A stretch of 64,000 nt of DNA from Micromonospora pallida (GTDB lineage Bacteria > Actinomycetota > Actinomycetes > Mycobacteriales > Micromonosporaceae): the NCBI RefSeq assembly GCF_900090325.1, contig NZ_FMHW01000002.1, forward strand, positions 5,395,001-5,459,000. Reading direction: 5' to 3'. The translations under genes and the position numbers were made by a program. The notes beneath the pieces are model-generated. The model ran no database searches, was not told the origin of the DNA, and saw nothing but the letters and a program-made list of their open reading frames with translations. Below are positions 492 through 24,780 of the stretch, piece after piece. Position 1 is the stretch's first letter; each line of letters begins with the position of its first letter.

Positions 492-538
492 CCGTCCACC
501 CGGTACGAACGCCCGGCCGGGTCCGCGCGGTGGCCGGC

Positions 539-3564: not shown

Positions 3565-4022
3565 CCGGCCCTCCCCGCGTCCGCACCCGACGGGGTGGGC
3601 ACCGGGTCGTCGTCCTCGCCCGGCTCACCGGCGGTCTGCTCGTCGGCGGTGCCCGGCCCCTCGTCCCGCTCGGCGAGGTCCATGATCCGGCGGTCCTCCA
3701 CGTCGTCCTGCACCTCGTCGTGACCGTTGAGGTGCCAGCTCCGGTAGGAGAGGGCGAGCAGGAAGGCCGTCATGCCGAGGGTGATGACGATGGCGGTGAG
3801 CACCATCGCCTGGGGCAGCGGATCGCTCATCTCCTCCTCGGGAGTGGTACCGACGATCGGCGGGCCGCCGGCCCGGCCGCCGGTGAGCAGGAGCAGGTTG
3901 GCGCCGTTGCCGAGCAGGACGACGCCCATCAGGATCCGGGTGAGGCTGCGCTCCAGCAGCAGGGTCACCCCGGCGGCGAAGAGCACCCCGACCACGAGGA
4001 CGTAGGTAAGGTTCGGCGTCAC
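3561..4022 (-). CDS. mnhC: Mrp/Mnh Na+/H+ antiporter subunit C
   Basis: A 153-residue subunit homologous to complex I NuoK. The GTG at 4022 (VTPNLTYVLVVG) overlaps the mnhA stop by four bases. Three helices are visible, with the family segment 'RILMGVVLLGNGANLLLL' near residues 28-45 and 'DPLPQAMVLTAIVITLG' near 68-85. The last 45 or so residues are acidic (EDRR, DEGP, GEDDD) and absent from short homologues, a common actinobacterial extension. It sits between A and D in the operon, as expected. Confidence 0.93.
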   Translation of the reverse strand: MTPNLTYVLVVGVLFAAGVTLLLERSLTRILMGVVLLGNGANLLLLTGGRAGGPPIVGTTPEEEMSDPLPQAMVLTAIVITLGMTAFLLALSYRSWHLNGHDEVQDDVEDRRIMDLAERDEGPGTADEQTAGEPGEDDDPVPTPSGADAGRAG

Positions 4023-6850: not shown

Positions 6851-6995
6851 ACAACCTCCCCAAGATCCACTGACCGCCGACCCCAACCTTATCCAGGGAA
6901 AAGCCGAATCGACACGCGCCGCAGGCAAACGTCATCCAACAGTCACACCGAGCTATCACCGCTGGCCGGCGGGGGCGGCGGGGCGCGACCGCCGG

Positions 6996-7919
6996 TCAGT
7001 GCCCGCCTGGGCGGTCAGGGTGCCGGCGCGGCGGCCGGGAGTGCGGTTCGTCACGGTCGATGCGCAGTTCCCGTTCGAGTTCGACGATGACCGCCCGGAG
7101 GTCGTCCAGCCGCTGGGTGAGCGCGATCCGGTCCACCTCGTCCGGCACGCCGTCCCCGTCCTCGTCGTAGTCCGGGGCGAGCCGCTCGGTCATCTCCAGC
7201 CGGCGGGCCTCCTCCATCGAGTTCACGATGACCGCGATCAGGATGTTGAGCAGCAGGTTCACCGTGATCAGCACGTAGCTGACGTAGTAGAGCAGGGTCC
7301 ACCGGGAGACGGCCATGCCCTGCTCGATGAGGTCCGGCAGGGTCTCCAGGGAGAGCAGCACGAACAGGGTGAGCAGCGACCGGCCGATGTCCCCGTACTG
7401 CTCGGGGTAGGTGTCCTTGAAGATCAGCCAACCGGCCATGCCGTACACGTAGAGGGTGACCACGGCCAGCGCCAGGAAGCCGCCGACGCCCGGCAGGCTG
7501 CGCCACAGTGCGGCGACGATGGTGCGCAGGCCCGGCGAGAAACGCACCAACCGGAGCATCCGGGCGACCCGGACCACCCGCAGCAGCGCCGAGTCGCCGT
7601 GCAGGCCGGGCAGGAAGATCGCCGAGATCACCACGAAGTCGAAGACGTTCCAGCCGTGCCGGAAGAAGTCCTGCGGGCGGCGGCCGTAGGCGAGCAGCCG
7701 GATGACGATCTCCGCGACGAACGCGATGCGGAAGGTCCACTCCAGCCCGTGCAGGACCGGCCGGGCCGCCCCCAGGTGCGGGTACGTCTCGACGCCGAGT
7801 ACCACGCCGTTGGCGATGATCACGACGACGATGGCGATCTCGAACGGGCGGGACCGGGCGAGCCGGCCGCACCGCTCGGCCAGGGCGGACTGGTCGGCCT
7901 GCGGGGTGACGCGGCTCAC
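6996..7919 (-). CDS. One-domain voltage-gated cation channel (NaChBac-like)
   Basis: A 307-residue channel with one S1-S6 repeat, like bacterial Nav channels that assemble as tetramers. S1 begins about residue 26 (FEIAIVVVIIANGVVLGVE). S4 carries arginines every third residue ('RVVRVARMLRLVRF', about 116-129), the voltage sensor. The pore loop has a filter-like 'LSLETLPD' where NaChBac has TLESW, so the Glu is kept but the following Trp is not. S6 ('LLYYVSYVLITVNLLLNILIAVIVNSM') is followed by a charged C-terminal coil. The GTG start has no strong ribosome site. Being next to a Na+/H+ antiporter suggests a role in Na+ balance, but selectivity (Na+ or Ca2+) cannot be read from sequence. Confidence 0.88.
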   Translation of the reverse strand: MSRVTPQADQSALAERCGRLARSRPFEIAIVVVIIANGVVLGVETYPHLGAARPVLHGLEWTFRIAFVAEIVIRLLAYGRRPQDFFRHGWNVFDFVVISAIFLPGLHGDSALLRVVRVARMLRLVRFSPGLRTIVAALWRSLPGVGGFLALAVVTLYVYGMAGWLIFKDTYPEQYGDIGRSLLTLFVLLSLETLPDLIEQGMAVSRWTLLYYVSYVLITVNLLLNILIAVIVNSMEEARRLEMTERLAPDYDEDGDGVPDEVDRIALTQRLDDLRAVIVELERELRIDRDEPHSRPPRRHPDRPGGH

Positions 7920-7950
7920 CGGGCCGCAGCCGCCGGTACGGTGCCACCCC

Positions 7951-8115
7951 TCATCGTCCGGTGTCCCGCTCGACCTCCCGGCGCAGCCCGTCGGCCTCCA
8001 TGCCCAGGTAGCGGCGGATCAGCCGGCCGCCGAGGAGCACGGTGACCCGGGCCAGCGGCCCGTCCAGCGCGGCCAACTCCACCCGCTGGTGGTACGCGAT
8101 ACCCAACGTCCCCAC
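7951..8115 (-). CDS. Small hypothetical protein upstream of the channel gene
   Basis: A 54-residue frame starting at GTG 8115, eight or so bases after a GGGGGAGGAG ribosome site. Sequence features: 'LGIAYHQRVEL', 'GPLARVTVLLGGRLIRRYLG' and a charged tail. No membrane helix or known motif is recognised. It ends 31 bases before the channel gene on the same strand, so they may be co-transcribed. The good ribosome site and orientation support a real gene; there is no homology evidence available here. Confidence 0.45.
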   Translation of the reverse strand: MGTLGIAYHQRVELAALDGPLARVTVLLGGRLIRRYLGMEADGLRREVERDTGR

Positions 8116-8323
8116 GCCTCCTCCCCCACCCGGCGCGTCAAGGACACCACCCACCCCAGCCGGTACGCCCCGCACGCCGTTGTCCGGTCAATCATGAACG
8201 GTGCTCGCTCCGACGCAGGTCGCCGGGGCCGCGGTATCCCGGTTGGCGCGGCGCCCGCCCACGCCTAACCTGCCGGACGGGAGCCGACACCACGCTCGAC
8301 CCGTGACCTGAGGAGCGACCTCG

Positions 8324-9070
8324 TTGGACCTCGATCGCAGTCACGTCATCCGCGAGGGTGACCTGCGCATCCTCAACCCGTTCGACGCCGGCAAGCTGGC
8401 CACCCTCGGGCAGGCGATCCGGCTGCGCCCCGGGGCGTCCGTCCTGGACCTGTGCAGCGGCAAGGGCGAACTGCTCTGCACCTGGGCCCGGGAGTACGGG
8501 ATCCACGGCACCGGTGTGGACATCAGCACCGCCTTCACCGCCGCCGCCCGGGACCGCGCCGCCGAACTCGGGGTGGCCGACCGGGTACGGTTCGTGCACG
8601 GCGACGCCGCCGCCTACGTACCCGATGAACCGGTCGACGTGGCCGCCTGCGTCGGTGCCACCTGGATCGGCGGGGGTGTCCCCGGCACCCTGGAGATCCT
8701 GGAACGCGGCCTGAGGCCCGGCGGGATGCTGCTGGTCGGCGAGCCGTACTGGCGGCGGACGCCCCCGGACCAGGCGACCGTGCAGGGGTGCTACGCCGCC
8801 TCCCGGGACGACTTCCAGGACCTGCCGGGCCTCGTCGAGCTGTTCCAGCGGTGCGGCTGGGACCTGGTCGAGATGGTTCTCGCCGACCAGGACAGTTGGG
8901 ACCGATACGCGGCGGCGCACTGGCTCAACCTCCGCCGCTGGCTCGACGACAACCCGGACGACGACCTCGCCCCACGAATGCGCGCCGAACTGACCGAGGA
9001 CCCGGTCCGTCACGTGCGGTACGCCCGGGAGTATCTCGGCTGGGGAGTCTTCGCGCTGCTCCGCCGCTGA
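8324..9070 (+). CDS. SAM-dependent class I methyltransferase
   Basis: A 248-residue soluble protein with a TTG start; GAGGAG lies about nine bases upstream. The Rossmann methyltransferase core is clear: motif I 'VLDLCSGKGELLCTWA' (about residues 41-56), an acidic end of strand 2 ('GTGVDIS'), motif post-I 'VRFVHGDAAAY' and motif IV/V 'ACVGATWIGGG' and 'LRPGGMLLVGEPYW'. The C-terminal third is helical. This resembles small-molecule methyltransferases annotated only as methyltransferase domain 25/11; the substrate is unknown. Its neighbours are not related by pathway. Confidence 0.85.
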   Translation: MDLDRSHVIREGDLRILNPFDAGKLATLGQAIRLRPGASVLDLCSGKGELLCTWAREYGIHGTGVDISTAFTAAARDRAAELGVADRVRFVHGDAAAYVPDEPVDVAACVGATWIGGGVPGTLEILERGLRPGGMLLVGEPYWRRTPPDQATVQGCYAASRDDFQDLPGLVELFQRCGWDLVEMVLADQDSWDRYAAAHWLNLRRWLDDNPDDDLAPRMRAELTEDPVRHVRYAREYLGWGVFALLRR

Positions 9071-9145
9071 CCGCCCCGGGCACGCCGACGCACGTCCCGT
9101 CGAGTGCGCGGGCTTCGATCACCTGGCGCCGTCCCTTGTGGTCCC

Positions 9146-10228
9146 TCAGCGGCTCCGGACCGAGAGCCGGCGGGCCAGCCCGATCAGCTCGGCCCGCGCG
9201 TCGTCGACGAGCGGCGCGTCGGCGAGCGCGGTCACCGCCTCCTCGGTCCGCGCGGCGATCATTTCCTCCACCCGGCGCAGGCCGCCGGTGTCCACGATGA
9301 TTCCCCGGAGCACGTCCGCGCCGACCCGGTCCAGGTGCGGGTCACCGTGCCACCGGTCGATGGCGGCGGCCTGCGCGGTCGTGGCGACCTCTCGGGTGAG
9401 CGCCATCAGCACCGTCGCCTTGCCGGCGCGCAGGTCGCTCAGGTTGGACTTGCCGGTGTGCGTGTCGTCGCCGAAGACGCCCAGCACGTCGTCGCGGAGC
9501 TGGAACGCCTCGCCGAGCGGGACGCCGATCCGGGAGAAGAGGGCCAGCTCGGCGCTGCCGGCACCGGCCCACGCGGCCCCGATCTGGAGCGGGCGCTCCA
9601 CCGTGTAACGGGCGGACTTGTAGCGCAGGATCCGCAGGCAGTCGGCCAGTCCGGCCCCGGCGGCCTCACCCCGGACGTCGAGGTACTGCCCCATCACCGC
9701 CTCGGCGCGCATCCGCTGGAACAGCGTCCGCACCCGGGACACCCCGTCGGCACCGGCGCTGGCGAACAGTTGCTCGGACCAGACCAGGCAGAGGTCGCCC
9801 CAGAGGATCGCCATGTTCCGGCCGAACCGCTCCGCGTCCCCCCGCCAGCCCCGGCGTCGGTGCCGGTCGGCGATGCTGACGTGCAGGGTCGGCCGGCCGC
9901 GCCGGGTGTCGCTGTCGTCCATCACGTCGTCGTGGATCAGCGCGAAGGCGTGGAACAGCTCCAGCGCGGCGGCGGCGCGCACCACCTCGGGACCGGTCCC
10001 ACCGCAGGCCCGCCAGCCCAGATGACAGAAGGTCGGCCGGGTCCGCTTGCCAGCCGCGCCCAGAACGAAGGACCGGAGCAGTTCGACGTCCTCCCGCCAG
10101 TCCTCGTCGCCGGCTGTGTCGAGGTGGGCGCTGAGGAAGTCGTCGAGCACGGTGTCCACGTCCCGCCGGAGCGCCGCGACACCGGGACCGGGATACGCCG
10201 CCACGGCCGACCCGCCCACACCGTCCAT
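9146..10228 (-). CDS. Polyprenyl (GGPP/FPP-type) diphosphate synthase
   Basis: A 360-residue trans-isoprenyl diphosphate synthase that condenses IPP with allylic diphosphates. The ATG at 10228 is preferred because GGGAG lies about eight bases upstream. The first aspartate-rich motif is 'LIHDDVMDDSDTRRGRPTLH' (about residue 107). The second is 'QLRDDVLGVFGDDTHTGKSNLSDL' (about 241), where the last Asp of DDxxD is Gly followed by FGD, as in many actinobacterial IdsA enzymes. 'GAAGKRTRPTF' near residue 70 is the substrate Lys/Arg site. Chain length cannot be set from sequence alone. No carotenoid or terpene cyclase gene is adjacent, so the role may be housekeeping (menaquinone or carotenoid precursor). 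Confidence 0.9.
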   Translation of the reverse strand: MDGVGGSAVAAYPGPGVAALRRDVDTVLDDFLSAHLDTAGDEDWREDVELLRSFVLGAAGKRTRPTFCHLGWRACGGTGPEVVRAAAALELFHAFALIHDDVMDDSDTRRGRPTLHVSIADRHRRRGWRGDAERFGRNMAILWGDLCLVWSEQLFASAGADGVSRVRTLFQRMRAEAVMGQYLDVRGEAAGAGLADCLRILRYKSARYTVERPLQIGAAWAGAGSAELALFSRIGVPLGEAFQLRDDVLGVFGDDTHTGKSNLSDLRAGKATVLMALTREVATTAQAAAIDRWHGDPHLDRVGADVLRGIIVDTGGLRRVEEMIAARTEEAVTALADAPLVDDARAELIGLARRLSVRSR

Positions 10229-10569
10229 GCCTGCTCTCCCATCGTCACCGGGAACGGCTGCCGGCAGCGCCCCGACACCGGTCAGCAATAGTCGTCACAT
10301 TGACCACTACCGTTCCGCTTTTCGCTGGCCGCGGGGATTCACCGCGCGCCCCACACCACCGCGCGGTCGCCGGCGCAGCGCCGGACACCGCATTCACACA
10401 CCTTATTGCGTACGGAGCCGTCCGGGGGTACGCGATCGTGCCGCCCCCAGCCGGAAACCGGATCCTGCCGGGCGGTCACAGCCAGCGCCTTCACGCCGAA
10501 ACGCGAGGCCAGGAAATCATCGAACGCGGATCTGGATCGGAATGCTCACCACCGTCTACTGTGATCGAC
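10229..10569. other. Divergent intergenic region
   Basis: The 341 bases between the divergent polyprenyl synthase and SGNH hydrolase genes must hold both promoters. A frame running through it into the hydrolase lacks protein-like composition and would bury the signal peptide, so I treat it as non-coding. No palindrome or convincing -10/-35 pair was picked out. Confidence 0.5.
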
Positions 10570-11415
10570 GTGAATATTCTGCGTAGCCTGCTCGCCAGTC
10601 TCGCCGTCGGCGCCACCGCCGCTGCCGTCGCTCTCTCGCCGACGGCCGCCGGGGCCGCGGAGTTGCCCAGCCACGCCCGCATCGCCGCGCTCGGAGACTC
10701 GATCACCCGGGCCGCGGTCGCCGACGGCACCACCGCGAGCCAGCCGCAGAACTCGTGGTCGACCGGCACCAGCACCTCGGTCAACTCGCACCTGCGCCGG
10801 ATGCAGGCTGCCGGGGTCACGATGACCGCCGGCAACTACGCGAAGGGTGGCGCCCGCTCCGGCGACCTGCCCGGCCAGGCGACCACCGCCGCCGCCACCG
10901 GACCCGACTACGTCACCATCCTCATCGGCGGCAACGACGTCTGCGCCGCATCGACGCTGTCCGGGATGACGTCGGCCGACACGTTCGAGTCGAACGTGCG
11001 CCGCACGCTGGACATCATCAAGGCCCAGAACCCGGACGCCCGGGTCATGCTGGCGTCGGCGCCGAGCCTGATGGCGCTGTACCAGATCGGGCGGGACAAC
11101 GTGACCATCCGCACCCGGTGGAACCTGATCGGCATCTGCGAGATCATGCTGGCCGACCCGATGAACTTCTCGTCGGAGGCCAACGCGCGGCGCAGCGCGG
11201 TCGAGGCACGCGTCGACGAGTACAACCAGCGACTGGCCAAGCTCGCCGCCGAACGCGCCAACGTCTTCTACGACAACGGCGCGGTGCACAACACGCCGTT
11301 CACCAGGACGGATCTGTCCATCCTCGACGGCTTCCACCCGTCGATCGCCGGCCAGAACAAGATCGCGGCGGAGGTCTGGACGTCCGCGCTCGAGCAGGGC
11401 GTCTTCACCCCCTGA
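10570..11415 (+). CDS. Secreted SGNH/GDSL-family esterase
   Basis: A 281-residue secreted hydrolase. Starting at GTG 10570 (GTG 10561 is also in frame) puts a typical signal peptide first (NILRSLLASLAVGATAAAVALS, cut near AGAAE). The four SGNH blocks follow: block I 'IAALGDSITR' with the nucleophile Ser, block II Gly in 'AKGGARSGDL', block III 'ILIGGNDVC' and block V 'ILDGFHPSIAGQ' with the catalytic Asp and His. This subfamily (lipase/esterase acting on secreted or cell-wall esters) is common in actinomycetes. No ribosome site is evident before either start. A strong hairpin follows the gene. Confidence 0.9.
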   Translation: MNILRSLLASLAVGATAAAVALSPTAAGAAELPSHARIAALGDSITRAAVADGTTASQPQNSWSTGTSTSVNSHLRRMQAAGVTMTAGNYAKGGARSGDLPGQATTAAATGPDYVTILIGGNDVCAASTLSGMTSADTFESNVRRTLDIIKAQNPDARVMLASAPSLMALYQIGRDNVTIRTRWNLIGICEIMLADPMNFSSEANARRSAVEARVDEYNQRLAKLAAERANVFYDNGAVHNTPFTRTDLSILDGFHPSIAGQNKIAAEVWTSALEQGVFTP

Positions 11416-11441
11416 CCCGACCGACCTGATCCCGCAAGCCC

Positions 11442-11469
11442 AGCCGGCCGGTCTCCTGACCGGCCGGCT
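11442..11469 (+). terminator. Hairpin terminator after the SGNH esterase
   Basis: The arms 11442-11453 and 11458-11469 are perfect 12-base inverted repeats around a TCCT loop, 27 bases after the stop codon. A short T-poor tail follows, as is usual for intrinsic-type terminators in high-GC actinomycetes. It separates the esterase from the iron-regulated import operon. Confidence 0.7.
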
Positions 11470-11526
11470 CCAATCATTCACGCTACGGAGTTGAACGACT
11501 ACCCACTGCCGCCCTTGAGGGGTAAG

Positions 11527-11545
11527 TGAGGTTAGGATAACCTAA
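11527..11545 (+). promoter_or_regulatory. Iron box (DmdR/IdeR-type operator)
   Basis: The 19 bases match the DtxR-family consensus TTAGGTTAGGCTAACCTAA closely, with a near-perfect dyad (GGTTAG...TAACC). It ends five bases before the ATG of the siderophore ABC ATPase, so it should cover the promoter or start site. Repression by an iron-loaded DmdR/IdeR protein is expected. The short gap also suggests a leaderless or very short-leader mRNA. Confidence 0.85.
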
Positions 11546-11550
11546 CCGCC

Positions 11551-12375
11551 ATGAGTAGTCGGGACAGTCGCGCCGAGGGCCTCCAGGGCGTGGACCTGCG
11601 TCTGGGCTACCACGGCGCGACCGTGGTGCACGACGCCGCCATCACGTTGCGCCCCGGTGCCGTGACGGCCCTGGTCGGGCCGAACGGCAGCGGCAAGTCC
11701 ACGCTGCTACGCGGGCTGGCCCGACTCCACCCGCTGGAGCACGGCGAGGTGCGGCTCACCGACGGCACCTCGGCCCGGGCGCTCACCGCCCGTGAGTTCG
11801 CCCGCCGGGTAACCCTGCTGGCCCAGAGCCGCCCCACGCCCAGCGGCGTTACCGTGCGGGACGTGGTCGGCTACGGCCGGCACCCGTACCGGGGACGTTG
11901 GCGGGCCGGCGACCCCGACGGCCCGGCCATGATCGACCGGGCCATGGCGACCACCGGCGTGACCGCGATGGCGGACCGGCCGGTTGACGAACTCTCCGGC
12001 GGCGAGTTGCAGCGGGTCTGGCTGGCCACCTGCCTGGCCCAGGACACCGGGGTGCTGCTGCTCGACGAGCCGACCACCTTCCTCGACCTCCGCTACCAGG
12101 TCGAGATCCTCGACCTGATGCGGGACCTCGCCGACGACCACGACGTCGCGGTCGGGGTCGTCCTGCACGACCTGAACCAGGCCGCCGCCGTCGCCGACGA
12201 GGTGGTGCTCCTGCACGGCGGACGCGTCCGGGCCACCGGCGCCCCGAACGACGTCCTCACCGAGCAGGCCCTGACCGAGACGTACGGCATCCGCATCGAG
12301 GTGACCGTCGACCCGGTCAACGGGATCCTCACCACCCGACCCGTCGGCCGGCACTCGACCCGGGCCCTCGCCTGA
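11551..12375 (+). CDS. Ferric-siderophore ABC transporter ATP-binding protein
   Basis: A 274-residue ATPase of the FecE/FepC class. Walker A 'GPNGSGKST' (about 45-53), Q-loop 'LLAQ', signature 'LSGGELQR' (about 150), Walker B 'VLLLDEPT' and switch 'LHDLNQA' are all intact. The ATG at 11551 follows directly after the iron box, with no room for a normal leader. It is the first gene of a four-gene unit (ATPase, binding lipoprotein, fused permease, siderophore-interacting reductase). Transport of a hydroxamate siderophore is inferred from the des genes 8 kb away. Confidence 0.93.
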   Translation: MSSRDSRAEGLQGVDLRLGYHGATVVHDAAITLRPGAVTALVGPNGSGKSTLLRGLARLHPLEHGEVRLTDGTSARALTAREFARRVTLLAQSRPTPSGVTVRDVVGYGRHPYRGRWRAGDPDGPAMIDRAMATTGVTAMADRPVDELSGGELQRVWLATCLAQDTGVLLLDEPTTFLDLRYQVEILDLMRDLADDHDVAVGVVLHDLNQAAAVADEVVLLHGGRVRATGAPNDVLTEQALTETYGIRIEVTVDPVNGILTTRPVGRHSTRALA

Positions 12376-12404: not shown

Positions 12405-13391
12405 ATGATGCGTACCCGCGCGACCCTCCTGGTCGCCGCCGTCGCCGCGCTGGCACTGAGCGCCTGCGGCACCACCGAAGACCCGGCCGCGAGCCCCGCC
12501 CCCGCCGACACCGCGGCCAGCGGTCCGGTCACCGTCACCGACAGCCGGGGCAAGGCCGTCACCCTCAAGGCGCCGGCCACCAAGGTCGTCGCGCTGGAGT
12601 GGGCCGAGGCCGAGACGCTGGTCTCCCTCGGTGTCATGCCGGTCGGCGTGGCCGACACCAAGGCGTACGCCACCTGGGTCGGCGCCGCCAAGCTCGACCC
12701 GAGCGTCACGGACGTCGGCACCCGGGCCGAGCCGAGCGTCGACGCGATCGTCGCGTTGCAGCCCGAGCTGGTGGTGATGGAGGCCGAGCGGGGCGCCACC
12801 CTGGTCGACCAGTTGGAGAAGTACGTGCCGGTGCTGGTCACCAAGGGCAGCGACGCCAAGGACAACCTCGGCCGGATGCGGTCGGACGTCACCATGATCG
12901 CTCAGGCGACCGGCCGGACCGCCGAGGGCGAGAAGCTGCTCGCCGACTTCGACGCCGCGCTCGCCGACGCCAAGAAGAAGATCGCCGACGCCGGGGCCGC
13001 CGGGAAGCAGTTCGCCGTCGCCGACGGCTGGAAGGACGGCAGCAACGTCACCATCCGGATGTTCGGTCAGGGCGCGTTCGTCTCCCAGATCGGCATCCAG
13101 CTCGGACTGAAGAACGCCTGGACCGGCGAGGTAGACGAGATGTGGGGGCTGGGCCAGACCGACGTCGAGGGGCTGACCGTCCTCAAGGGTCAGGACCTGA
13201 CCTTCCTCTACAACGCCTCGGACGGCGACGACGTCTTCAAGACGGGCCTGGCCGGCAACGCGATCTGGAAGTCGCTGTCCTTCGTACAGCAGAACAAGCT
13301 GCACCGGATGCCCGACGGCATCTGGACCTTCGGTGGTCCGCTCTCCGGCAAGCAGTACATCGACGAGTTCGTCAAGGTCTACGCGGCTTGA
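12405..13391 (+). CDS. Siderophore-binding lipoprotein of the ABC importer
   Basis: A 328-residue extracellular binding protein. A lipoprotein signal ends in lipobox 'LALSAC' with the lipidated Cys near residue 22, followed by a Ser/Pro/Ala spacer. The rest is a class III (FhuD/FecB-type, Peripla_BP_2) fold: 'RGKAVTLKAPATKVVALEWAEAE', 'VGTRAEPSVDAIVALQPELVVM', 'ATGRTAEGEKLLADFDAAL'. It delivers ferric siderophore to the permease encoded next. In Streptomyces the equivalent next to the des genes is DesE; orthology here is plausible but not proven. Confidence 0.93.
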   Translation: MMRTRATLLVAAVAALALSACGTTEDPAASPAPADTAASGPVTVTDSRGKAVTLKAPATKVVALEWAEAETLVSLGVMPVGVADTKAYATWVGAAKLDPSVTDVGTRAEPSVDAIVALQPELVVMEAERGATLVDQLEKYVPVLVTKGSDAKDNLGRMRSDVTMIAQATGRTAEGEKLLADFDAALADAKKKIADAGAAGKQFAVADGWKDGSNVTIRMFGQGAFVSQIGIQLGLKNAWTGEVDEMWGLGQTDVEGLTVLKGQDLTFLYNASDGDDVFKTGLAGNAIWKSLSFVQQNKLHRMPDGIWTFGGPLSGKQYIDEFVKVYAA

Positions 13392-15496: not shown

Positions 15497-15557
15497 GTTC
15501 CCGACCAGCGGCCCGGCAGGCGTGCCGGGCCACCAGACACCGATAAGGAAGGCCGCC

Positions 15558-16520
15558 ATGCCGAGCACCCTCTCCGTCGCGCCCTGGCGCGTCTTCGCCG
15601 TCGAGGTCCGGGCACTGCGCCGGCTCAGCCCGTCGTTCCTGCGCGTCACCTTCACCGGCCCGGACCTGGACCGGTTCGCCGACAACGGGTACGACCAGCG
15701 AATCAAGGTGGCACTACCGCGTACCGGCGAGCTGGCGGCCGAACTGCCGGACGGTCCCGACTGGTACCAGCAGTGGCGGGCGCAGCCAGAGGAGACGCGT
15801 TGCCCGATCCGTACGTACACGGTCCGGGCGGTCCGGCCGGACGCCCAGGAGGTGGACGTCGACCTGGTGCTGCACGGCGACGGCGGTCCGGCCACCCGGT
15901 GGGCGCGACGGGCCCGGCTCGGCGACCGGCTCGCCCTGGTCGGCCCGGACGTCGGCTACGACGGGGTGCACGGCGGCATCGAGTTCCGGCCCCCGACGGT
16001 CGGGACGCTGCTGCTCGCCGGGGACGAGACCGCCGCACCGGCAATCTGCGCCATCCTGGAGCGGCTGTCGGCCGACGCCCGGGGCCACGCGCTGATCGAG
16101 GTACCGGAGGCCGGCGACACCCTGCCGGTGACCGCACCGCCGGGGATGACTGTGACCTGGCTGCCCCGGATCGGCGCGGCCCACGGCAGCCGGCTCACCC
16201 CGACCGTGGCGACACTCGCCGGAGAACTGCTCCCCGCCGCCCTGCCCGCCCTGACCCTGGCCAGCGGAGGAACCCCGACGGTCGACTCCCTGGCCGACGC
16301 GATGGCTGCGACGGTCGGCTCCTTGGCCGACGTGGACGTGGACCGGGATGTCCTCTGGGAGGTGCCGGACGTGGCCCCCACCGCCCCGCTCTACGCCTGG
16401 CTGGCCGGGGAGGCGGCGGTGATCCGGGGGCTGCGCCGGCACCTGGTCGCCGAACGAGGGCTCGACCGGAGCGCGGTGGCCTTCATGGGCTACTGGCGAC
16501 TGGGCCGCACCGCCGACTGA
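15558..16520 (+). CDS. Siderophore-interacting FAD-binding reductase (SIP family)
   Basis: A 320-residue flavoprotein of the SIP/ViuB family, which reduces ferric siderophore in the cytoplasm to release Fe(II). The ATG at 15558 has GGAAGG eight bases upstream. The FAD-binding barrel (about 10-140) shows 'RIKVALP' and 'RTYTVRAVRPDAQEVDVDLVLHG', and the C-terminal SIP domain shows 'LLLAGDETAAPAICAILERL' and ends 'VAFMGYWRLGR'. It is the last gene of the import unit. It corresponds to DesF in Streptomyces by role and neighbourhood. Confidence 0.92.
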   Translation: MPSTLSVAPWRVFAVEVRALRRLSPSFLRVTFTGPDLDRFADNGYDQRIKVALPRTGELAAELPDGPDWYQQWRAQPEETRCPIRTYTVRAVRPDAQEVDVDLVLHGDGGPATRWARRARLGDRLALVGPDVGYDGVHGGIEFRPPTVGTLLLAGDETAAPAICAILERLSADARGHALIEVPEAGDTLPVTAPPGMTVTWLPRIGAAHGSRLTPTVATLAGELLPAALPALTLASGGTPTVDSLADAMAATVGSLADVDVDRDVLWEVPDVAPTAPLYAWLAGEAAVIRGLRRHLVAERGLDRSAVAFMGYWRLGRTAD

Positions 16521-16672: not shown

Positions 16673-17230
16673 TCAGGGGGCGGGACGGTCGAGGAAGAGG
16701 AGTTGGGCGCGTTTCTCGGGCAGGTCGATCTGCGGCCCGAGGACGAAGCCCGCGCGAACCAACCGGGCGATGGCCCGGTCGTTGCGGGCGTCGGGTTCGG
16801 CCACGATCCGCCGCCGGGACCGGTCGGCCAGTACGAAGTCGAGGAACGCGCCGAGCACGGTGCCGGTGAAACCGGGCTCGACCCCGCCGTCCGGCGGGCC
16901 GACCATCAGGTGGATGCCGAAGTCGCCCGGCTGCACGTCGTAGCACTCGCCCACCGGGTCGGCCGCCGGCTCGTACGTCTGGAAGAGCCCGACCGGGCGG
17001 CCGTCCCGGTGGATCAGGTACGCGTGGTGGGTGGCGAGCGAGTCCAGGTAGGCGTAGATCTCCTGGACCCGCTCCCGGCTGGCGTCCCGCATGCCCCAGA
17101 AGCGGGACCGTTCCCGGGTGACCCAGTCGTGGATCAGGCCGGCGTCGGTGACCGGGTCGACGGGACGGATGGCCACCTCCCCGAAGCCGTCGACCTGCCG
17201 CTGCCAGACCGGGTCAGGGGGTTTGGTCAT
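16673..17230 (-). CDS. IucB/MbtK-like GNAT acyltransferase, extra siderophore gene
   Basis: A 185-residue GNAT-fold acyltransferase of the siderophore (RhbD/AlcB, IucB) type. ATG 17230 follows GAGGAGCGAA. Matching landmarks with DesC (22367) are clear: 'VAIRPVDPVTDAGLIHDWVT', 'FGIHLMVGPPDGGVEPGFTG', 'RRIVAEPDARNDRAIARLVRAGFVLG'. So the island holds two paralogous acyltransferases. The gene overlaps the Ntn-hydrolase gene by 17 bases and is probably co-transcribed from the iron box at 19298. I recall similar extra genes in published Micromonosporaceae des loci, but cannot check names. A role in attaching or exchanging an acyl group on the siderophore is inference. Confidence 0.85.
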   Translation of the reverse strand: MTKPPDPVWQRQVDGFGEVAIRPVDPVTDAGLIHDWVTRERSRFWGMRDASRERVQEIYAYLDSLATHHAYLIHRDGRPVGLFQTYEPAADPVGECYDVQPGDFGIHLMVGPPDGGVEPGFTGTVLGAFLDFVLADRSRRRIVAEPDARNDRAIARLVRAGFVLGPQIDLPEKRAQLLFLDRPAP

Positions 17231-19280
17231 TTCGCTCCTCGGTGAGCTGGTGCCAGTCGGTGACCACGGGGACGAGGTCACCACGCAGCCAGTACGACAG
17301 TTGGTCACGCTGGTGCGGGTCGCCGGGCACTCCGGACGCCCCGAACGGCACGATCCACCGGCTGTCGTCGCGTCGGCCCAGGTCCCAGACGTAGCGGGCG
17401 GCCGACGCCCGGAAGCAGAGGTGGGTGACTCCGGGGACGCTGGAGGTGGCGAGCACGCAGTCGTGGTCTCCGGAGAGGCCCGGCCACTGCTCCTCGGGGT
17501 CGGGCCGGGCCGCCCAGGGGGCGAGCCGGTGCACGTCCCCCCACCGGGTCAGGGCGGCGTCGGCCACCTCGTCGAGCGCCGCACGGGCGGAGGCGGACCG
17601 GTCGGCCGTGGTGAGGAGATCCGTGGTGAGGAGATCCGTGGTGAGCAGGGTCGGCAGTGCGAAGCCGACCTTCGGCACCAGGGCTAGCCAGGGGTGGAAG
17701 AGGGCCGGGTAGCTCGCCGGCAGATCGGCCAGTGGGGCCAGCGTGGGGTGGGCGGCGAGACGGCGTACCACGATGGCCCGGACGGCGGCGAAGGCGGCGG
17801 CGTCGACGCTGTCGGCGCGCATCTCGCGGTCCCAGCGCAGCAGCCGGTCGCGCAGCGCGGCGGCGGCCGGGGCGAGCCCGTCCAGGCCGGCGAGGAGGGC
17901 GAGCAGCGGCTCGGCGGAGGCCAGCCTGGTGTCGGTGTGGACGATCGCCTGCTGGTCGGCGGACCAGTCCGTCCGGGCGGTGAGGAGTTCCCGGATCCGG
18001 TCGGCCCGGTGGGGTGGGGCGAACTCGACGCCGAGCGGCGTGGCGACGCCCCGCTCGTTCGCCATCACCGCGACGTCGCGTACCTCGGTACGGGGCAGGT
18101 CGTGCCAGCCGCGCCACTCGTGGCCGGGCTCCCAGGCCGGGACGACCCGCAGCCCGTTGTCCCGGTCCCGCACCGGGACGGTCCCGGCGACGCGGTGCAG
18201 CAGGCCGCCCTCGGTGTCGGCGGCGAGCACCACGTTGACCGGTTCCACCCAGTGTTCGCAGGCGGCGTCCACGTCGGCCACCCGGGTGGCGGTGAGCAGG
18301 GCGGGCAGCGCGGCGAAGCCGAGGGCGCCGGAGACCCGGGGCGGGTAGCGGAGGCTGATCGCCGACTCGTCGTCGGGGCTGCCGATGATCACCGGGCCAC
18401 GGTCGGTCTCGACGACCTCGACCTCGACCGGATCCCCGCCGGCCACCTCGACCGACTCGACGTGCCGCTCGGCGGGGTGCCAGCCGTCCGGGCCGAGCGC
18501 CTCGACGGTGTCGCCCCGGCGGCGCAGCCGCTCGGCGTACAGGTCCTGGTAGTCGGCCATCGCGTTGGTGATCGCCCAGGCCACCGTTCCGGTGTGTCCG
18601 AAGTGGGCGATGCCGGGCACGCCGGGCACGGCCAGCCCGACCACGTCGTACGTCGGGCAGGCCAGCCGGATCTGCTGGTAGATGCCGGGGTCCTCGATGA
18701 ACCGGTGCGGGTCCCCGGCGACGATCGGCGACCCGCTGGCGGTCCGTGCCCCGGTGAGCAGCCAGCCGTTGCTGCCGGCGGTGTCGGGACGGTCGGTGGC
18801 GAAGAGGCGGACCGCGTCCGCGCCCAGGCGGCGGGCGACCTCGGTCCGCCAGAGCTTGGCCGGGAAGCCGGCGAAGAGCACGTGGTGGGAGAGCCAGATC
18901 GCCAGCGGAGTCCAGGGCTGCCAGTGTCCGGGGGTCAGCCCGGTGGCGGTGAACTGCGGTGCGCGGCGGGCACCAGCGGTGAGGCCGGCGTTGACGCCGT
19001 CGACGTACGCGCGCACCCAGGCGGCGGTGGCCGGGTCGAGGTTGTCGTGGCAGCGTCGGGCGGTGTCGGCGAGCCGGGCCCGCCGCGCGAACAGGTCCCA
19101 GTCGAGCGCCTCCGCGCCGAGAAAGGACGCGCTGGTCCCCTGTGACCGGTGCCGTTCCACCTCGAGCTGCCAGGCCCGGTCGGTCGCCGCGTTACGCCCC
19201 TGGGCGAAGGCGAGCGCGTGCGGGTCGTCGGCCCGAAGGTGCGGAATTCCCCACTTATCACGGAAGACCCGGTGTTCCAC
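17214..19280 (-). CDS. Penicillin acylase family Ntn-hydrolase, no signal peptide
   Basis: A 688-residue member of the penicillin amidase (Ntn-hydrolase) family, starting at GTG 19280 after GAGAGGGG. The N-terminal 'KWGIPHLRADDPHALAFAQGRNAATDRAWQLE' motif and the autocatalytic site 'AGSNGWLL' are present, so Ser170 would be the new N-terminus of the beta chain, leaving a 169-residue alpha chain. Later family motifs include 'AGDPH' and 'NAMADYQDLYAERL'. No signal peptide is seen, unlike most periplasmic family members, which points to the cytoplasm. Adjacent siderophore genes and an iron box upstream suggest amide cleavage or exchange on a siderophore; this is inference. Confidence 0.88.
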   Translation of the reverse strand: MEHRVFRDKWGIPHLRADDPHALAFAQGRNAATDRAWQLEVERHRSQGTSASFLGAEALDWDLFARRARLADTARRCHDNLDPATAAWVRAYVDGVNAGLTAGARRAPQFTATGLTPGHWQPWTPLAIWLSHHVLFAGFPAKLWRTEVARRLGADAVRLFATDRPDTAGSNGWLLTGARTASGSPIVAGDPHRFIEDPGIYQQIRLACPTYDVVGLAVPGVPGIAHFGHTGTVAWAITNAMADYQDLYAERLRRRGDTVEALGPDGWHPAERHVESVEVAGGDPVEVEVVETDRGPVIIGSPDDESAISLRYPPRVSGALGFAALPALLTATRVADVDAACEHWVEPVNVVLAADTEGGLLHRVAGTVPVRDRDNGLRVVPAWEPGHEWRGWHDLPRTEVRDVAVMANERGVATPLGVEFAPPHRADRIRELLTARTDWSADQQAIVHTDTRLASAEPLLALLAGLDGLAPAAAALRDRLLRWDREMRADSVDAAAFAAVRAIVVRRLAAHPTLAPLADLPASYPALFHPWLALVPKVGFALPTLLTTDLLTTDLLTTADRSASARAALDEVADAALTRWGDVHRLAPWAARPDPEEQWPGLSGDHDCVLATSSVPGVTHLCFRASAARYVWDLGRRDDSRWIVPFGASGVPGDPHQRDQLSYWLRGDLVPVVTDWHQLTEERNDQTP

Positions 19281-19297
19281 TCGACCCCTCTCATCGA

Positions 19298-19316
19298 TAA
19301 GGTTTGCCTAACCTAT
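19298..19316 (-). promoter_or_regulatory. Weaker iron box upstream of the Ntn-hydrolase gene
   Basis: This 19-base dyad reads, on the minus strand, ATAGGTTAGGCAAACCTTA and differs from the iron-box consensus at about four positions, mostly in one half-site. It lies 17 bases before the GTG of the Ntn-hydrolase gene. Iron repression of the leftward pair is therefore likely, probably with lower affinity than for desA. Confidence 0.65.
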
Positions 19317-19380
19317 GTAACGGAGAGCGTGCGCACAATTCCACCGATCCGATCACGGTGCGCGAGGCGACCACAACTCC

Positions 19381-19410
19381 TTGACAGGAAATTAGGTTAG
19401 GGTAACCTAA
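19381..19410 (+). promoter_or_regulatory. desA promoter with embedded iron box
   Basis: A housekeeping-type promoter is visible: TTGACA (19381-19386), 16-base spacer, TAACCT (19403-19408). The iron box TTAGGTTAGGGTAACCTAA occupies 19392-19410, differing from the ideal dyad only in the centre, and covers the whole -10. Binding of an iron-loaded DtxR-family repressor would block RNA polymerase. The leader to desA would be about 75 bases. Confidence 0.88.
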
Positions 19411-19490
19411 CCACGGCCCAGGCCGGCGCGTCCGTTCCCGGATGCCCGGTCGCCGTTGACCGTCTCCACGCGACCGTTGAGGAAACCGCC

Positions 19491-21053
19491 ATGAACCTCC
19501 AGGGGCACGAGGCTGCGCCGATCCCGGCGCGACGCCGGCCGACGGCCGCCCGCGCGTACCTGCTCAACCAGGCCACGGTCGACGACTACCGGCGGACGGT
19601 GACCGCCGGGGTCGACCGGGTGGCGGGCCGGGTGGCCGGCGTCGACCGCCCGTTCACCGGCGTCACCCCGGACCGTCTCGCTCCCGCGATCGGCCGGATC
19701 GACCTGGACCGGCCGCTGCACGACCCGGCCGCCGCCCTCGACGAGTTGGACTCCGTCTACCTCCGCGACGCGGTCTGGTTCCACCACCCCCGCTACCTGG
19801 CCCACCTCAACTGCCCGGTGGTGATCCCGGCGCTGCTCGGCGAGGCGGTGCTCAGCGCGGTCAACTCCTCCCTGGACACCTGGGACCAGAGCGCCGGCGG
19901 GACGCTGATCGAGCGCCGTCTGATCGACTGGACGGCCGACCGGATCGGCCTCGGCCCGACCGCCGACGGGGTCTTCACCAGTGGCGGCACCCAGTCCAAC
20001 CTCCAGGCCCTGCTGATGGCCCGGGAGGAGGCCTGCGCGACGCAGCCGCTGCCCCGCGCCGACCTGCTGCCGAAGCTGCGCATCCTCGCCTCCGAGGCCG
20101 GGCACTTCAGCGTGCAGAAGTCGGCGAAGCTGCTCGGCCTGGGCCGGGACTCGGTGGTCACCGTGGAGACCGACGCCGACCGGCGGATGCGTCCCGAGGC
20201 GCTGGCCCGCGAGATCGAACGCTGCCAGCGGGCCGGGCTGGTCGTGATGGCCGTGGTCGCGACCGCCGGCACCACCGACTTCGGCACCATCGACCCGCTG
20301 CCGGCCATCGCCGAGCAGTGCCGGGCCGCCGGGGTCTGGCTGCACGTCGATGCCGCGTACGGCTGTGGGCTGCTGGTCTCCCGCACCCGGCGGCACCTGC
20401 TCGACGGCATCGAGCAGGCCGACTCGGTGACCGTGGACTACCACAAGTCCTTCTTCCAGCCGGTCAGCTCCAGCGCGGTGCTCGTCCGGGACCGGCGGAT
20501 GCTGCGGCACGTCACCTACCACGCCGACTACCTGAACCCGGCCCGGATGGTCGAGCAGCGCATCCCCAACCAGGTGGACAAGAGCCTCCAGACCACCCGT
20601 CGCTTCGACGCGCTCAAGCTCTGGCTGACCCTGCGCATCATGGGCGCGGACGCCCTCGGCGAACTCTTCGACGAGGTGGTGGACCGGGCCGCCGACGCCT
20701 GGGCGCTGCTCAGCACCGACCCGCGCTTCGAGGTGGTCACCCGCTCGCAGCTCAGCACGGTGGTGTTCCGGTACCTGCCGGCGGAACGTCACCTCGCCGA
20801 CGACGCCAACCTGCACGCCAGGGAGGCGCTGGCCGCCTCCGGCGCCGCGGTGGTCGCCGGGACGAAGGTGGACGGCCGGCACTTCCTGAAGTTCACCCTG
20901 CTCAACCCGGAGACCACCATCGACGACATCGCGCACGTCCTCGACCTGGTCGCCGCGCACGCGGGCCGGTACGTCCGGGCGCGGACCGCCGCCGAGATGG
21001 CGTTGCCGGTCCCGGCCGAGGTGTCCGTCGCCGAGCCCTGCCACGTCGGCTGA
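19491..21053 (+). CDS. desA: Lysine decarboxylase, desferrioxamine pathway (DesA)
   Basis: A 520-residue PLP-dependent group II decarboxylase that makes cadaverine from lysine, the first step of desferrioxamine synthesis. The ATG follows GAGGAAACCGCC. Landmarks: 'NSSLDTWDQSAGGTLIE' and 'GVFTSGGTQSNLQAL' (about 142-180), 'EAGHFSVQKSAKLLG', 'HVDAAYGCG' and 'DYHKSFFQP' with the PLP lysine at residue 319. It is the first gene of desABCD behind the iron box. Close relatives include aromatic-amino-acid and glutamate decarboxylases, but the order with a lysine N-hydroxylase, a GNAT and an IucA/C synthetase settles the role. Confidence 0.94.
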   Translation: MNLQGHEAAPIPARRRPTAARAYLLNQATVDDYRRTVTAGVDRVAGRVAGVDRPFTGVTPDRLAPAIGRIDLDRPLHDPAAALDELDSVYLRDAVWFHHPRYLAHLNCPVVIPALLGEAVLSAVNSSLDTWDQSAGGTLIERRLIDWTADRIGLGPTADGVFTSGGTQSNLQALLMAREEACATQPLPRADLLPKLRILASEAGHFSVQKSAKLLGLGRDSVVTVETDADRRMRPEALAREIERCQRAGLVVMAVVATAGTTDFGTIDPLPAIAEQCRAAGVWLHVDAAYGCGLLVSRTRRHLLDGIEQADSVTVDYHKSFFQPVSSSAVLVRDRRMLRHVTYHADYLNPARMVEQRIPNQVDKSLQTTRRFDALKLWLTLRIMGADALGELFDEVVDRAADAWALLSTDPRFEVVTRSQLSTVVFRYLPAERHLADDANLHAREALAASGAAVVAGTKVDGRHFLKFTLLNPETTIDDIAHVLDLVAAHAGRYVRARTAAEMALPVPAEVSVAEPCHVG

Positions 21054-21077
21054 CCGCCCCGTCTGATGGAGAGCCGC

Positions 21078-22370
21078 ATGTCGACCCACGACTTCATCGC
21101 GATCGGGCTCGGTCCGTACAACCTGGGCCTGGCCTGCCTGACCGCACCAATCACCGAACTGGACGGCGTCTTCCTGGAGGCCCGCCCGGAGTTCGACTGG
21201 CATCCCGGCATGCTGCTGGCGTCCACCCGGCTCCAGACGCCGTTCATCGCCGACCTGGTCACCCTGGCCGACCCGACCTCGCCGTACTCGTTCCTGAACT
21301 ACCTGAAGGAGTCGGGGCGGCTCTACCCGTTCTACATCCGGGAGAGCTTCTTCCCGCTCCGCCGGGAGTACAACGACTACTGCCGGTGGGCAGCCGGCAA
21401 GCTGGACAGCATCCGCTTCGGCCAGCAGGTCACCTCGGTCGAGTACGCCGACGGCGGCTACACCGTCCGGGCCACGGTCGCGGCGAGCGGCGAGCCGGTC
21501 GAGTACCGCGCCCGACACCTGGTGCTGGGCACCGGCACCCCGCCGTACCTGCCGCCGGCCTGCGCGAAGCTCGGCGGTGACCTCATCCACAACACGCACT
21601 ACCTGGAGCACCGGGACGCCCTGCGCACCAAGCGGAGCATCACCGTCGTCGGCAGTGGACAGAGCGCGGCCGAGATCTACCACGACCTGCTCGGCGACCT
21701 CGACGCGCACGGCTACCAGCTCAACTGGGTGACCCGCTCGCCGCGTTTCTTCCCGCTGGAGTACACCAAGCTCACCCTGGAGATGACCTCCCCGGACTAC
21801 GTGGACTACTTCCACGGCCTGCCCGAGGCGACCCGCTACCGGCTGGAGTCCGAGCAGAAGAACCTGTTCAAGGGGATCAACTCCGACCTGATCAACGACA
21901 TCTTCGACCTGCTCTACGCCCGCAGCCTGGACGGACCGGTCCGCACCCGGCTGCTCACCAACACCGAGCTGACCAGCGCCGCGTACGACGCGTCGACCGG
22001 CAGCTACCGGCTCGGATTGCGCCACGTCGAGCAGGAACGGGACTTCACCCTGGACACCGAGGGGTTGGTGCTGGCCACCGGCTACCACTACCGGGTGCCG
22101 GACTTCCTCGAACCGGTGCGGGACCGGATCCGATGGGACGGCCACGGCCGCTTCGACGTGGCCCGCAACTACACCGTCGACCACGCCGGGCGGGAGATCT
22201 TCCTCCAGAACGCGGGCACCCACACGCACAGCATCACCTCGCCCGACCTGGGCATGGGTCCGTACCGCAACTCGTGGATCATCCGGGAGCTGACCGGCCG
22301 GGAGCACTACCCGATCGAGAAGAGCATCGCCTTCCAGGAGTTCGGCGCACCGGCGGGAGCGGGGGCGTGA
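21078..22370 (+). CDS. desB: Cadaverine/lysine N-monooxygenase (DesB)
   Basis: A 430-residue flavin-dependent N-hydroxylase (IucD/SidA family) that converts cadaverine to N-hydroxycadaverine with NADPH and O2. ATG 21078 is chosen over ATG 21066 because GGAGAG sits six bases ahead and the FAD-binding motif then begins near the N-terminus ('[16 protein letters not shown]'). The NADPH-binding motif is '[17 protein letters not shown]' (about 188), and '[15 protein letters not shown]' is the typical late ATGY motif. It lies 24 bases after desA, and its stop overlaps the desC GTG. Confidence 0.95.
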
Positions 22371-22969
22371 CCACCGTCGTGTACTGCCGGGTCGACGACC
22401 GGCTCGGCGACCTCGCCCTGCGTACCCTCGATCCGGACGCGGACGCCACGCTGCTGCACGGCTGGGTGACCCACCCGAAGGCGGCGTTCTGGCTGATGTC
22501 GGACATGGACCCGGTCCAGGTCGCCGCCGAGTACCGCCGCATCCACGCGCACCCGCACCACGACGCCTTCGTCGGCCTGTGGCGGGAGCGGCCCGCCTTC
22601 CTCGCCGAGCGGTACGACCCGGCGCACGTCGAACTCGTCGGCCTGTACGACGCGGTCGAGGGCGACGTGGGCATGCACTTCCTCTGCGCCCCCACCGACA
22701 CACCCGTGCACGGTTTCACTCTCGCCGTGATCACCACCGTGCTGGCCTGGCTCTTCGCCGAGCCGGCCACCCGCCGGGTGGTGGTGGAGCCGGACATCCG
22801 CAACACGGCGGTGCACGCGCTCAACGCGGCCGTCGGCTTCGAGGTGGTCGGCCCGCTCGCGAAGCCGGAGAAGAAGGCCCTGCTCAGCGTCTGCACCCGG
22901 GCCATGTTCGAGAAAGCCACCGGCCTGGACACCACGGTCCGGCCGTCCCCGGAGGAGTCCCGCGCGTGA
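22367..22969 (+). CDS. desC: N-hydroxycadaverine acyltransferase (DesC)
   Basis: A 200-residue GNAT-type acyltransferase that adds succinyl or acetyl (or longer acyl) groups to N-hydroxycadaverine. The GTG start overlaps the desB stop (GTGA). The siderophore-GNAT pattern is present: '[27 protein letters not shown]', '[18 protein letters not shown]' and '[27 protein letters not shown]'. DesC enzymes studied elsewhere are tolerant of acyl donors, which fits the extra acyl-related genes at 16.7-19.3 kb. It is paralogous to the GNAT at 16673. Confidence 0.94.
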
Positions 22970-24780
22970 ACCCCCTCGAGTCCGTCACCCATCTGACCCC
23001 GGAGCACTGGGCTCGGGCCAACCGGCTGCTGGTGCGCAAGGCGCTCGCCGAGTTCGCCCACGAGCGGCTGCTCACCCCCGAGCCGGTCGACGACGAGCCC
23101 ACCGGTTCGACCGGCCCGGCTGGGCGCAGGTATCTCATCCGCAGTAACGACGGTGGCGTCGAGTACCGGTTCACTGCCCGGCTGCTCTCCCTGGAGCACT
23201 GGCACATCGACCCGGAAAGCATCACCCGCCACCGGGACGGCGCGGAACTGCCGCTGGACGCCCTGGACCTCTGCACCGAGCTGCGCGGCGCGCTCGGCCT
23301 CTCCGACCGGGTGCTGCCGGTCTATCTGGAGGAGATCACCTCCACCCTGGCCGGGACCGCGTACAAGCTGAGCCGCCCGGCGGTGAGCGCCGCCGAGCTG
23401 GCCCGCGCCGACTTCCAGGCCGTCGAGACCGGCATGACCGAGGGCCACCCCTGCTTCGTCGCCAACAACGGGCGACTCGGCTTCGGCATCCACGAATACC
23501 ACCGGTACGCCCCGGAGGCGGCCCACCCGGTCCGCCTGCTCTGGCTCGCCGCGCACCGCGACCATGCCACCTTCACCTGCGCCGCCGACCTCGACTACGA
23601 CACCCTCATGGCGTACGAGCTGGGTACGGAAACCCTGGACCGGTTCGCCGCCACCCTCACCGACCTCGGCCTCGACCCGGCCGACTACCTGTTCATCCCG
23701 GTGCACCCCTGGCAGTGGTGGAACCGGCTCGCGGTCACCTTCGCCGGTGAGGTAGCCCAGCGGCGGCTGGTCTGCCTGGGCGAGGGGCCGGACGATTACC
23801 TGGCCCAGCAGTCCATCCGCACCTTCTTCAACGTCAGCGCGCCGGAGCGGCACTACGTCAAGACCGCGCTGTCCGTACTGAACATGGGCTTCCTGCGCGG
23901 GCTCTCCGCCGCGTACATGGCGGCCACCCCGGCGATCAACGACTGGCTCGCCGAGCTGTTCGACGCCGATGAGGTGATCAAGGAGACCGGCCTGACCGTC
24001 CTGCGCGAGCGGGCCGCGATCGGCTACCGGCACCAGCAGTTCGAGGCGGCCACCGACCGGTACTCCCCGTACCGGAAGATGCTCGCGGCGCTGTGGCGGG
24101 AGAGCCCGGTGCCGGCCCTGGCGCCGGGGCGGCGGCTGGCCACCATGGCGTCGCTGGTGCACGTCGACCGCGACGGGCGCTCGCTGGCCGCCGCGCTGGT
24201 CGCGGAGTCCGGGCTGGCCCCCGAGGTGTGGCTGCGCCGCTACCTGGACGCGTACCTGGTGCCGCTGCTGCACGCCTTCTACGCCTACGACCTGGCGTTC
24301 ATGCCGCACGGCGAGAACGTCATCCTGGTGCTGGACGGCGGCACGGTGGAACGGGTGATCTTCAAGGACATCGCCGAGGAGATCTGCGTGATGGATCCGG
24401 CGGTGGAGCTGCCCGAGACGGTCCGCCGGGTCCAGGCCGAGATCCCGGAGGACATGCGGTTGCTGTCGATCTTCACCGACGTCTTCGACTGCTTCTTCCG
24501 GCACCTGAACGCGGTGCTGTCCACCGAGGGCGTCCTCGACGAGGAGAGCTTCTGGCGGACGGTGGCGGCCTGCGCCGCCGACTACCGCGACCGGGTGCCG
24601 CACCTGGCCGACCGGTTCCGGCGGTACGACCTCTTCGCCGACGAGTTCGCCCTGTCCTGCCTGAACCGGCTCCAGTTGCGCAACAACGAGCAGATGGTCG
24701 ACCTGGCCGATCCCTCCGCCGCCCTGCAACTGGTCGGCACCCTCGCCAACCCCCTCGCCCGGTACGCCCCGGCCGGCTGA
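22966..24780 (+). CDS. desD: NRPS-independent siderophore synthetase (DesD)
   Basis: A 604-residue IucA/IucC-family synthetase that joins N-hydroxy-N-succinylcadaverine units by ATP-dependent amide formation, giving linear or macrocyclic desferrioxamines. The GTG start overlaps the desC stop; GGAGGAG lies nine bases upstream. Landmarks: 'FVANNGRLGFG' (ATP loop region), 'HPWQWWN', 'SIRTFFNVSAPERHYVKTALSVLNMGFLRG' (about 282-310) and, in the C-terminal FhuF-like part, 'HGENVILVLDGG'. It is the last des gene; an AT-rich hairpin follows immediately. Confidence 0.95.
   Translation: MNPLESVTHLTPEHWARANRLLVRKALAEFAHERLLTPEPVDDEPTGSTGPAGRRYLIRSNDGGVEYRFTARLLSLEHWHIDPESITRHRDGAELPLDALDLCTELRGALGLSDRVLPVYLEEITSTLAGTAYKLSRPAVSAAELARADFQAVETGMTEGHPCFVANNGRLGFGIHEYHRYAPEAAHPVRLLWLAAHRDHATFTCAADLDYDTLMAYELGTETLDRFAATLTDLGLDPADYLFIPVHPWQWWNRLAVTFAGEVAQRRLVCLGEGPDDYLAQQSIRTFFNVSAPERHYVKTALSVLNMGFLRGLSAAYMAATPAINDWLAELFDADEVIKETGLTVLRERAAIGYRHQQFEAATDRYSPYRKMLAALWRESPVPALAPGRRLATMASLVHVDRDGRSLAAALVAESGLAPEVWLRRYLDAYLVPLLHAFYAYDLAFMPHGENVILVLDGGTVERVIFKDIAEEICVMDPAVELPETVRRVQAEIPEDMRLLSIFTDVFDCFFRHLNAVLSTEGVLDEESFWRTVAACAADYRDRVPHLADRFRRYDLFADEFALSCLNRLQLRNNEQMVDLADPSAALQLVGTLANPLARYAPAG

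Follow-up and report, generated by a model that had tools for sequence, protein, structure and literature searches.

A desG-desH pair back-to-back with desABCD in Micromonospora pallida: probable capping genes of a desferrioxamine cluster and an arginine in the acyl pocket of DesG

A 64,000-nucleotide stretch of the 7.76-Mb genome of Micromonospora pallida, hereafter the window (G000 C2:5395001-5459000), carries two overlapping genes, encoding a hydrolase and an acyltransferase, which lie back-to-back with the divergent siderophore genes desABCD. The two genes probably represent the desG-desH pair of a Micromonospora-type desferrioxamine cluster, which would set the ratio of capped desferrioxamine B to cyclic desferrioxamine E under iron control, through desuccinylation of N-hydroxy-N-succinylcadaverine (HSC) and reacylation; we put the probability of this reading at about 0.8. 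The acyl swap at its core is right but was published in 2025 (Augustijn et al., PLoS Biology; PMC12161575), and the locus is an ordinary member of a described system. Our additions are modest, namely an arginine signature at position beta-24 of the acyl pocket and a set of solo desH loci, neither of which was found in searches of openly licensed papers. Desferrioxamine B is used as a drug to chelate iron, and the choice between this compound and the cyclic form appears to rest with desGH. The central features, in window coordinates, are the following.

17214-19280, minus strand: desG, a penicillin-amidase-family (S45) N-terminal nucleophile (Ntn) hydrolase of 688 amino acids, GTG start
16673-17230, minus strand: desH, a GCN5-related N-acetyltransferase (GNAT; PF13523) of 185 amino acids, ATG start
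18702-18773, minus strand: codons of DesG residues 170-193, from SNGW to DPHR (Ser170 is beta-1, Arg193 is beta-24)
19298-19316, minus strand: predicted iron box of desGH, 3 mismatches of 19
19392-19410, plus strand: strong iron box facing desA, 1 mismatch
19491-21053, plus strand: desA, pyridoxal-phosphate-dependent decarboxylase (PF00282)
21066-22370, plus strand: desB, N-hydroxylase (PF13434)
22367-22969, plus strand: desC, acyltransferase and DesH paralogue (PF13523, 164.9 bits)
22966-24780, plus strand: desD, NRPS-independent siderophore synthetase (PF04183, PF06276)

The gene rule given in an excerpt of PMC12161575, PF01804 within 1 kb of PF13523, describes this pair, whose frames share 17 bases (17214-17230), and desABCD is present in the same genome (19491-24780). 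DesG matches PF01804 across residues 4-680 with 532 bits. Its SNGW motif begins at residue 170, Ser170 being the predicted autoprocessing nucleophile, and Ser170, His192, Asn408 and Arg425 are invariant in 38 DesG alignment rows, the catalytic assignment of Asn408 and Arg425 resting on alignment to 4HSR. With a serine opening the beta chain and the other catalytic residues in place, DesG is a predicted S45 Ntn-hydrolase. A crude hydrophobicity test found no signal peptide: of all 12-residue stretches within the first 45 residues, the most hydrophobic scores 0.25 (Kyte-Doolittle), compared with 2.66 for the siderophore-binding protein of the window, and none of 120 DesG relatives exceeds 2.0 (the best 120 of 3371 matches, among which the closest carry Micromonospora names). 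DesG thus looks cytoplasmic, judging by its sequence. NCBIfam provides no above-cut-off name for DesG or DesH; an identity of DesG with PvdQ was rejected, the score being 28.2 bits against the PvdQ equivalog cut-off of 950. A 15-base tandem repeat in desG (window 17608-17652; two perfect copies and an incomplete third) encodes LLTTDLLTTDLLTT, which is absent from the consensus of relatives.

DesH scores 162.9 bits against PF13523, comparable to DesC. The two proteins are separated by a residue pair, which is Glu81-Arg82 in 17/17 DesC rows and Gln84-Thr85 in 53/53 DesH rows. We considered this difference as proof of the choice between succinyl and acetyl and rejected it, because the DfoC domain exhibits Glu-Phe at the aligned position.

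The iron box assigned to desGH lies upstream of desG, 17 bases from its start codon, and was scored against a 19-base consensus. In 100 dinucleotide shuffles of the window, the mean number of matches was 0.00 and the largest 0. The whole genome contains 7 distinct sites with at most 3 mismatches, three of which are in this cluster, and a genome-wide control with the backwards consensus yields 0 sites. Since both controls give 0, the predicted desGH box, of the type bound by DmdR1, is weak yet well above chance. The original prediction, made from the DNA letters, had described a penicillin-acylase-family enzyme with a Ser170 motif but no signal peptide, overlapping a DesC-like second GNAT, placed back-to-back with siderophore genes and served by a weak iron box, and all of these elements are recovered here. 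A loosened iron-box pattern, devised after the site had been seen, was tailored to the known result and carries no weight here. A scan of 19200-19520 for sigma-70-like promoters and terminators found none. Three more iron-box-like sites with 3 mismatches lie outside the cluster (G000:C2:4796367, 6153291 and 7575015). Across the family, we scanned the 30 best DesG loci plus one further locus (L042), of 61 DesG hits, with 30 single-base shuffles each: a box with at most 4 mismatches occurs within 600 bases upstream of DesG in 21 of the 31 loci, a level never reached by the shuffles.

The distribution of the genes was determined in 150 Micromonosporaceae genomes, drawn evenly and related to one another, so that the Fisher p obtained for their co-occurrence is uncalibrated as a probability and is given no weight. 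The orthologue cut-offs (at least 50% identity for DesG and DesD, at least 46% for DesH) were set after seeing the gaps in identity. This leaves out DesG rows at about 29-36%, which belong to another S45 subgroup and account for the second hit in both G080 and G136, as well as four DesD rows at 39-41% and DesH rows below 46%, which are mostly DesC. Where a DesG hit was split, its second fragment was dropped. DesG is present in 60 genomes, DesD in 63 and DesH in 59. DesD and DesG occur together in 59 genomes, corresponding to 59/63 of the DesD genomes and 59/60 of the DesG genomes, and all 59 DesH genomes also carry DesG, so the pair co-occurs with desABCD clusters, the test set by the original prediction. 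DesD lies less than 20 kb from DesG on the same contig in 43/59 genomes, draft genomes with the genes on separate contigs being counted as far. In 32 genomes a single stop-free frame holds both DesG and DesH; in 19 the two occupy adjacent separate frames, and in 9 they are apart or unpaired. The shared frame, defined by equal stop-to-stop frame lengths, is a proxy for fusion, and one genome with equal lengths (G029, 789) fell below the length limit and was counted as adjacent. By this measure, fused DesG-DesH proteins look common in Micromonosporaceae. Two relatives, P0094 and P0111, are annotated with both domains.

The function of such pairs has been addressed in Streptomyces coelicolor. According to excerpts of PMC12161575, the desJGH genes (SCO4048-SCO4050) encode a penicillin-amidase-family DesG and a DesC-like acyltransferase, DesH, under the control of DmdR1. 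Inactivation lowered desferrioxamine B about 1000-fold (desG) or about 16-fold (desH), with an increase in desferrioxamine E; this contradicts, in that species, the unchanged knock-out profile that would have counted against the original prediction, whose remark that the roles of such genes are thinly documented no longer holds for Streptomyces. The same excerpts propose that DesG strips succinate from HSC, after which DesH adds an acetyl group to the freed amine. Homologues of desG and desH are reported there from 36/46 sequenced producers, and the nine strains without desGH are said to have made only uncapped products. The window resembles this system in its PF01804 hydrolase adjoining a DesC-like PF13523 acyltransferase and in its iron box, S. 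coelicolor being a desferrioxamine producer. In contrast, the S. coelicolor operon lies apart from desABCD and includes desJ, a desF paralogue, whereas in M. pallida the pair and desABCD stand back-to-back, and a SIP (siderophore-interacting protein) reductase adjoins a second desH at another locus (L034). Among other sources seen in excerpt, PMC6401478 names a desG candidate with an iron box in S. venezuelae, PMC13011467 cites desJGH and, like PMC9600172, adds nothing on function in its relevant passages, and PMC8146288 describes a Micromonospora that produces desferrioxamine B, with desGH unmentioned in the passages concerned.

We infer that the same chemistry operates in this strain. DesA and DesB would make N-hydroxycadaverine, which DesC would succinylate to HSC. 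DesG would cut itself before Ser170 and then regenerate N-hydroxycadaverine from some of the HSC by hydrolysis. DesH would preferentially acetylate the freed amine, which amounts to a swap of succinyl for acetyl on the monomer. DesD would join the units, an open-chain product being possible besides the ring, and the activity of desGH, under predicted iron control, would in this way set the proportion of B to E.

The residue at position beta-24 of the acyl pocket bears on the nature of the acyl group. This residue is Arg193 in DesG, and every DesG protein examined carries an arginine there. Of ten published structures compared at beta-24, only a glutaryl acylase and a D-succinylase do so, whereas three penicillin G acylases and PvdQ exhibit a phenylalanine and one penicillin G acylase a valine (PMC11241749 Table 1). 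Because the arginine is shared with these two enzymes only, it favours, at the level of sequence comparison, desuccinylation over the older idea that DesG makes aryl-capped (phenylacetyl) desferrioxamines like penicillin acylases. The latter idea was first proposed in 2017, is quoted in excerpts of PMC12161575 and PMC6401478, and agrees with the penicillin-amidase family membership of DesG, but we consider it unlikely. S. coelicolor has desG, yet no arylated desferrioxamine is known from it (PMC12161575, in excerpt). In addition, where the penicillin G acylases 1FXH, 3K3W, 6NVW and 7REO exhibit Gln at beta-23 followed by Phe or Val at beta-24, DesG has His192-Arg193, and it lacks their signal peptide as far as the hydrophobicity test can tell. 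A different pocket arginine, Arg255, was modelled as holding the glutaryl group in a glutaryl acylase, and its loss abolishes that activity (PMC8197700, in excerpt); by analogy, this supports the principle of a pocket arginine, not the beta-24 position.

DesG combines a predicted D-succinylase-like fold with this arginine. The D-succinylase of Cupriavidus sp. P4-10-C (PDB 7EA4, 7EBY) shows 26% identity to DesG and acts on N-succinyl-D-amino acids, which are amides, whereas the proposed substrate of DesG is a hydroxamate. The class III glutaryl-7-aminocephalosporanic acid acylase (PDB 4HSR, 4HST) also exhibits Arg at beta-24, is 33-34% identical over the beta chain, and by its name handles a dicarboxylic acyl group, as proposed for DesG; however, it is an engineered industrial enzyme and the amine half of its substrate is another one. 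The closest solved sequence is PDB 35sz ('Penicillin acylase family protein'; 526 bits on the beta chain with the profile), which keeps the DPHR motif of DesG and is not among the DesG fold matches obtained with a library to April 2026. PvdQ of Pseudomonas aeruginosa belongs to the same superfamily and likewise serves siderophore synthesis, but has Phe at beta-24 and a fatty-acyl substrate. The title of PDB 5ubk mentions a pyoverdine precursor. The Arg193 signature makes the proposed desuccinylation a one-enzyme test.

Several observations weigh against assigning a desuccinylating, capping role to the pair. The loop holding the key arginine (residues 193-198) was modelled at a predicted local distance difference test (pLDDT) score below 50, with values from 79 to 42 across five models; the sequence of DesG is nearer to 4HSR (331 bits) than to the D-succinylase (184 bits); and the fold ranking sets whole precursors against lone beta chains. 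With regard to regulation, 10 of the 31 DesG loci have no box, of which seven lie directly behind desD and three (L007, L008 and L009) do not, and the count of boxes may include those of a divergent desA, as is possible in clusters like this one. Four genomes carry DesD without DesG or DesH (G022, G094, G139 and G147), and one, G130, carries DesG without DesD or DesH. Desuccinylation is worded as a proposal in the excerpts of PMC12161575, and DesG biochemistry was not found in the literature examined. Finally, DesC alone makes N-hydroxy-N-acetylcadaverine (HAC) in vitro (cited in an excerpt of PMC12161575), and desGH is therefore not strictly required.

The original prediction also held that the pair removes or swaps an acyl chain of the siderophore, perhaps for release or for salvage after import. 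The swap matches the published desGH model (PMC12161575, in excerpt), but its object would be the monomer and not the finished siderophore, and we see no support for release or salvage. That DesG cuts the hydroxamates of finished or imported ferrioxamines, for recycling or release, seems very unlikely to us, although DesG looks cytoplasmic and the following uptake and reductase genes adjoin desGH.

11527-11545, plus strand: iron box ahead of the uptake genes, 2 mismatches
11551-12375, plus strand: siderophore uptake ABC ATPase
12405-13391, plus strand: siderophore uptake binding protein
ending at 15496, plus strand: FecCD-like permease frame after the binding protein, identified by eye
15522-16520, plus strand: SIP-type siderophore-interacting ferric reductase, desF-like

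When desG is inactivated in S. coelicolor, B falls and E rises, which fits a biosynthetic step (PMC12161575, in excerpt); the partner of DesG is an acyltransferase that is often fused to it; and nearly every DesG genome carries DesD, whereas salvage could also be expected in non-producers.

Copies of desH away from desG were observed in twelve genomes, as the only copy in 8 and as an extra copy in 4, including this one. The former 8, together with G130, make up the nine genomes with DesG apart or unpaired. Eight of the 12 solo loci were inspected, L034 in this genome and L035-L041 in seven others. An iron box with 1-3 mismatches is present within 700 bases upstream of solo desH in 7/8 loci; in L035, no box was found within that distance, and one stands behind desH, ahead of a reductase gene. 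A SIP reductase adjoins solo desH in four loci (L034, L035, L037 and L038), and FecCD/ABC genes lie upstream of it in L036. In this genome, the second DesH-like GNAT (L034:5711-7180; G000:C2, approximately 3994710-3996180; 53% identity) follows a 1-mismatch iron box at a distance of 77 bases, is divergent from a SIP-type reductase, and has no DesG nearby. Another GNAT stands between the box and solo desH in L039 (6441-6971; PF00583) and, by eye, in L040 (about 6330-6870), where the stop of the hit is the end of a 176-residue frame and not a break. FastTree trees assign the solo DesH of this genome to a second DesH lineage and show a mixed pair in G131, whose DesG (L042) belongs to one lineage and whose solo DesH (L036) belongs to the other.

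These loci suggest a possible source of further capped variants. More tentatively, DesG and DesH could be the halves of a split two-step acyl exchanger that need not be neighbours, solo copies attaching acyl groups of other kinds to the N-hydroxycadaverine that DesG releases. We find this doubtful; if it were true, a sole-copy solo DesH would, from the gene content, have to pair in trans with a DesG, and one strain could choose among differently capped ferrioxamines. A related explanation, that DesH and its solo copy load fatty-acyl or other groups instead of acetyl in this strain, appears highly improbable: acetyl, fatty-acyl and aryl caps do occur among desGH producers (PMC12161575, in excerpt) and the diverged second DesH has its own iron box, but the residues separating DesC from DesH are not tied to acyl length. 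A chance neighbourhood of an unrelated acylase and GNAT, for which two further PF01804 genes elsewhere in the genome could be cited, is already contradicted by the co-occurrence across the 150 genomes, the shared frames and the iron boxes.

A plasmid search with window positions 1-12000 returned 24 records, 0 of which reached 80% query coverage. The uptake binding protein scores 145 bits against NCBIfam FhuD, under the cut-off of 252.
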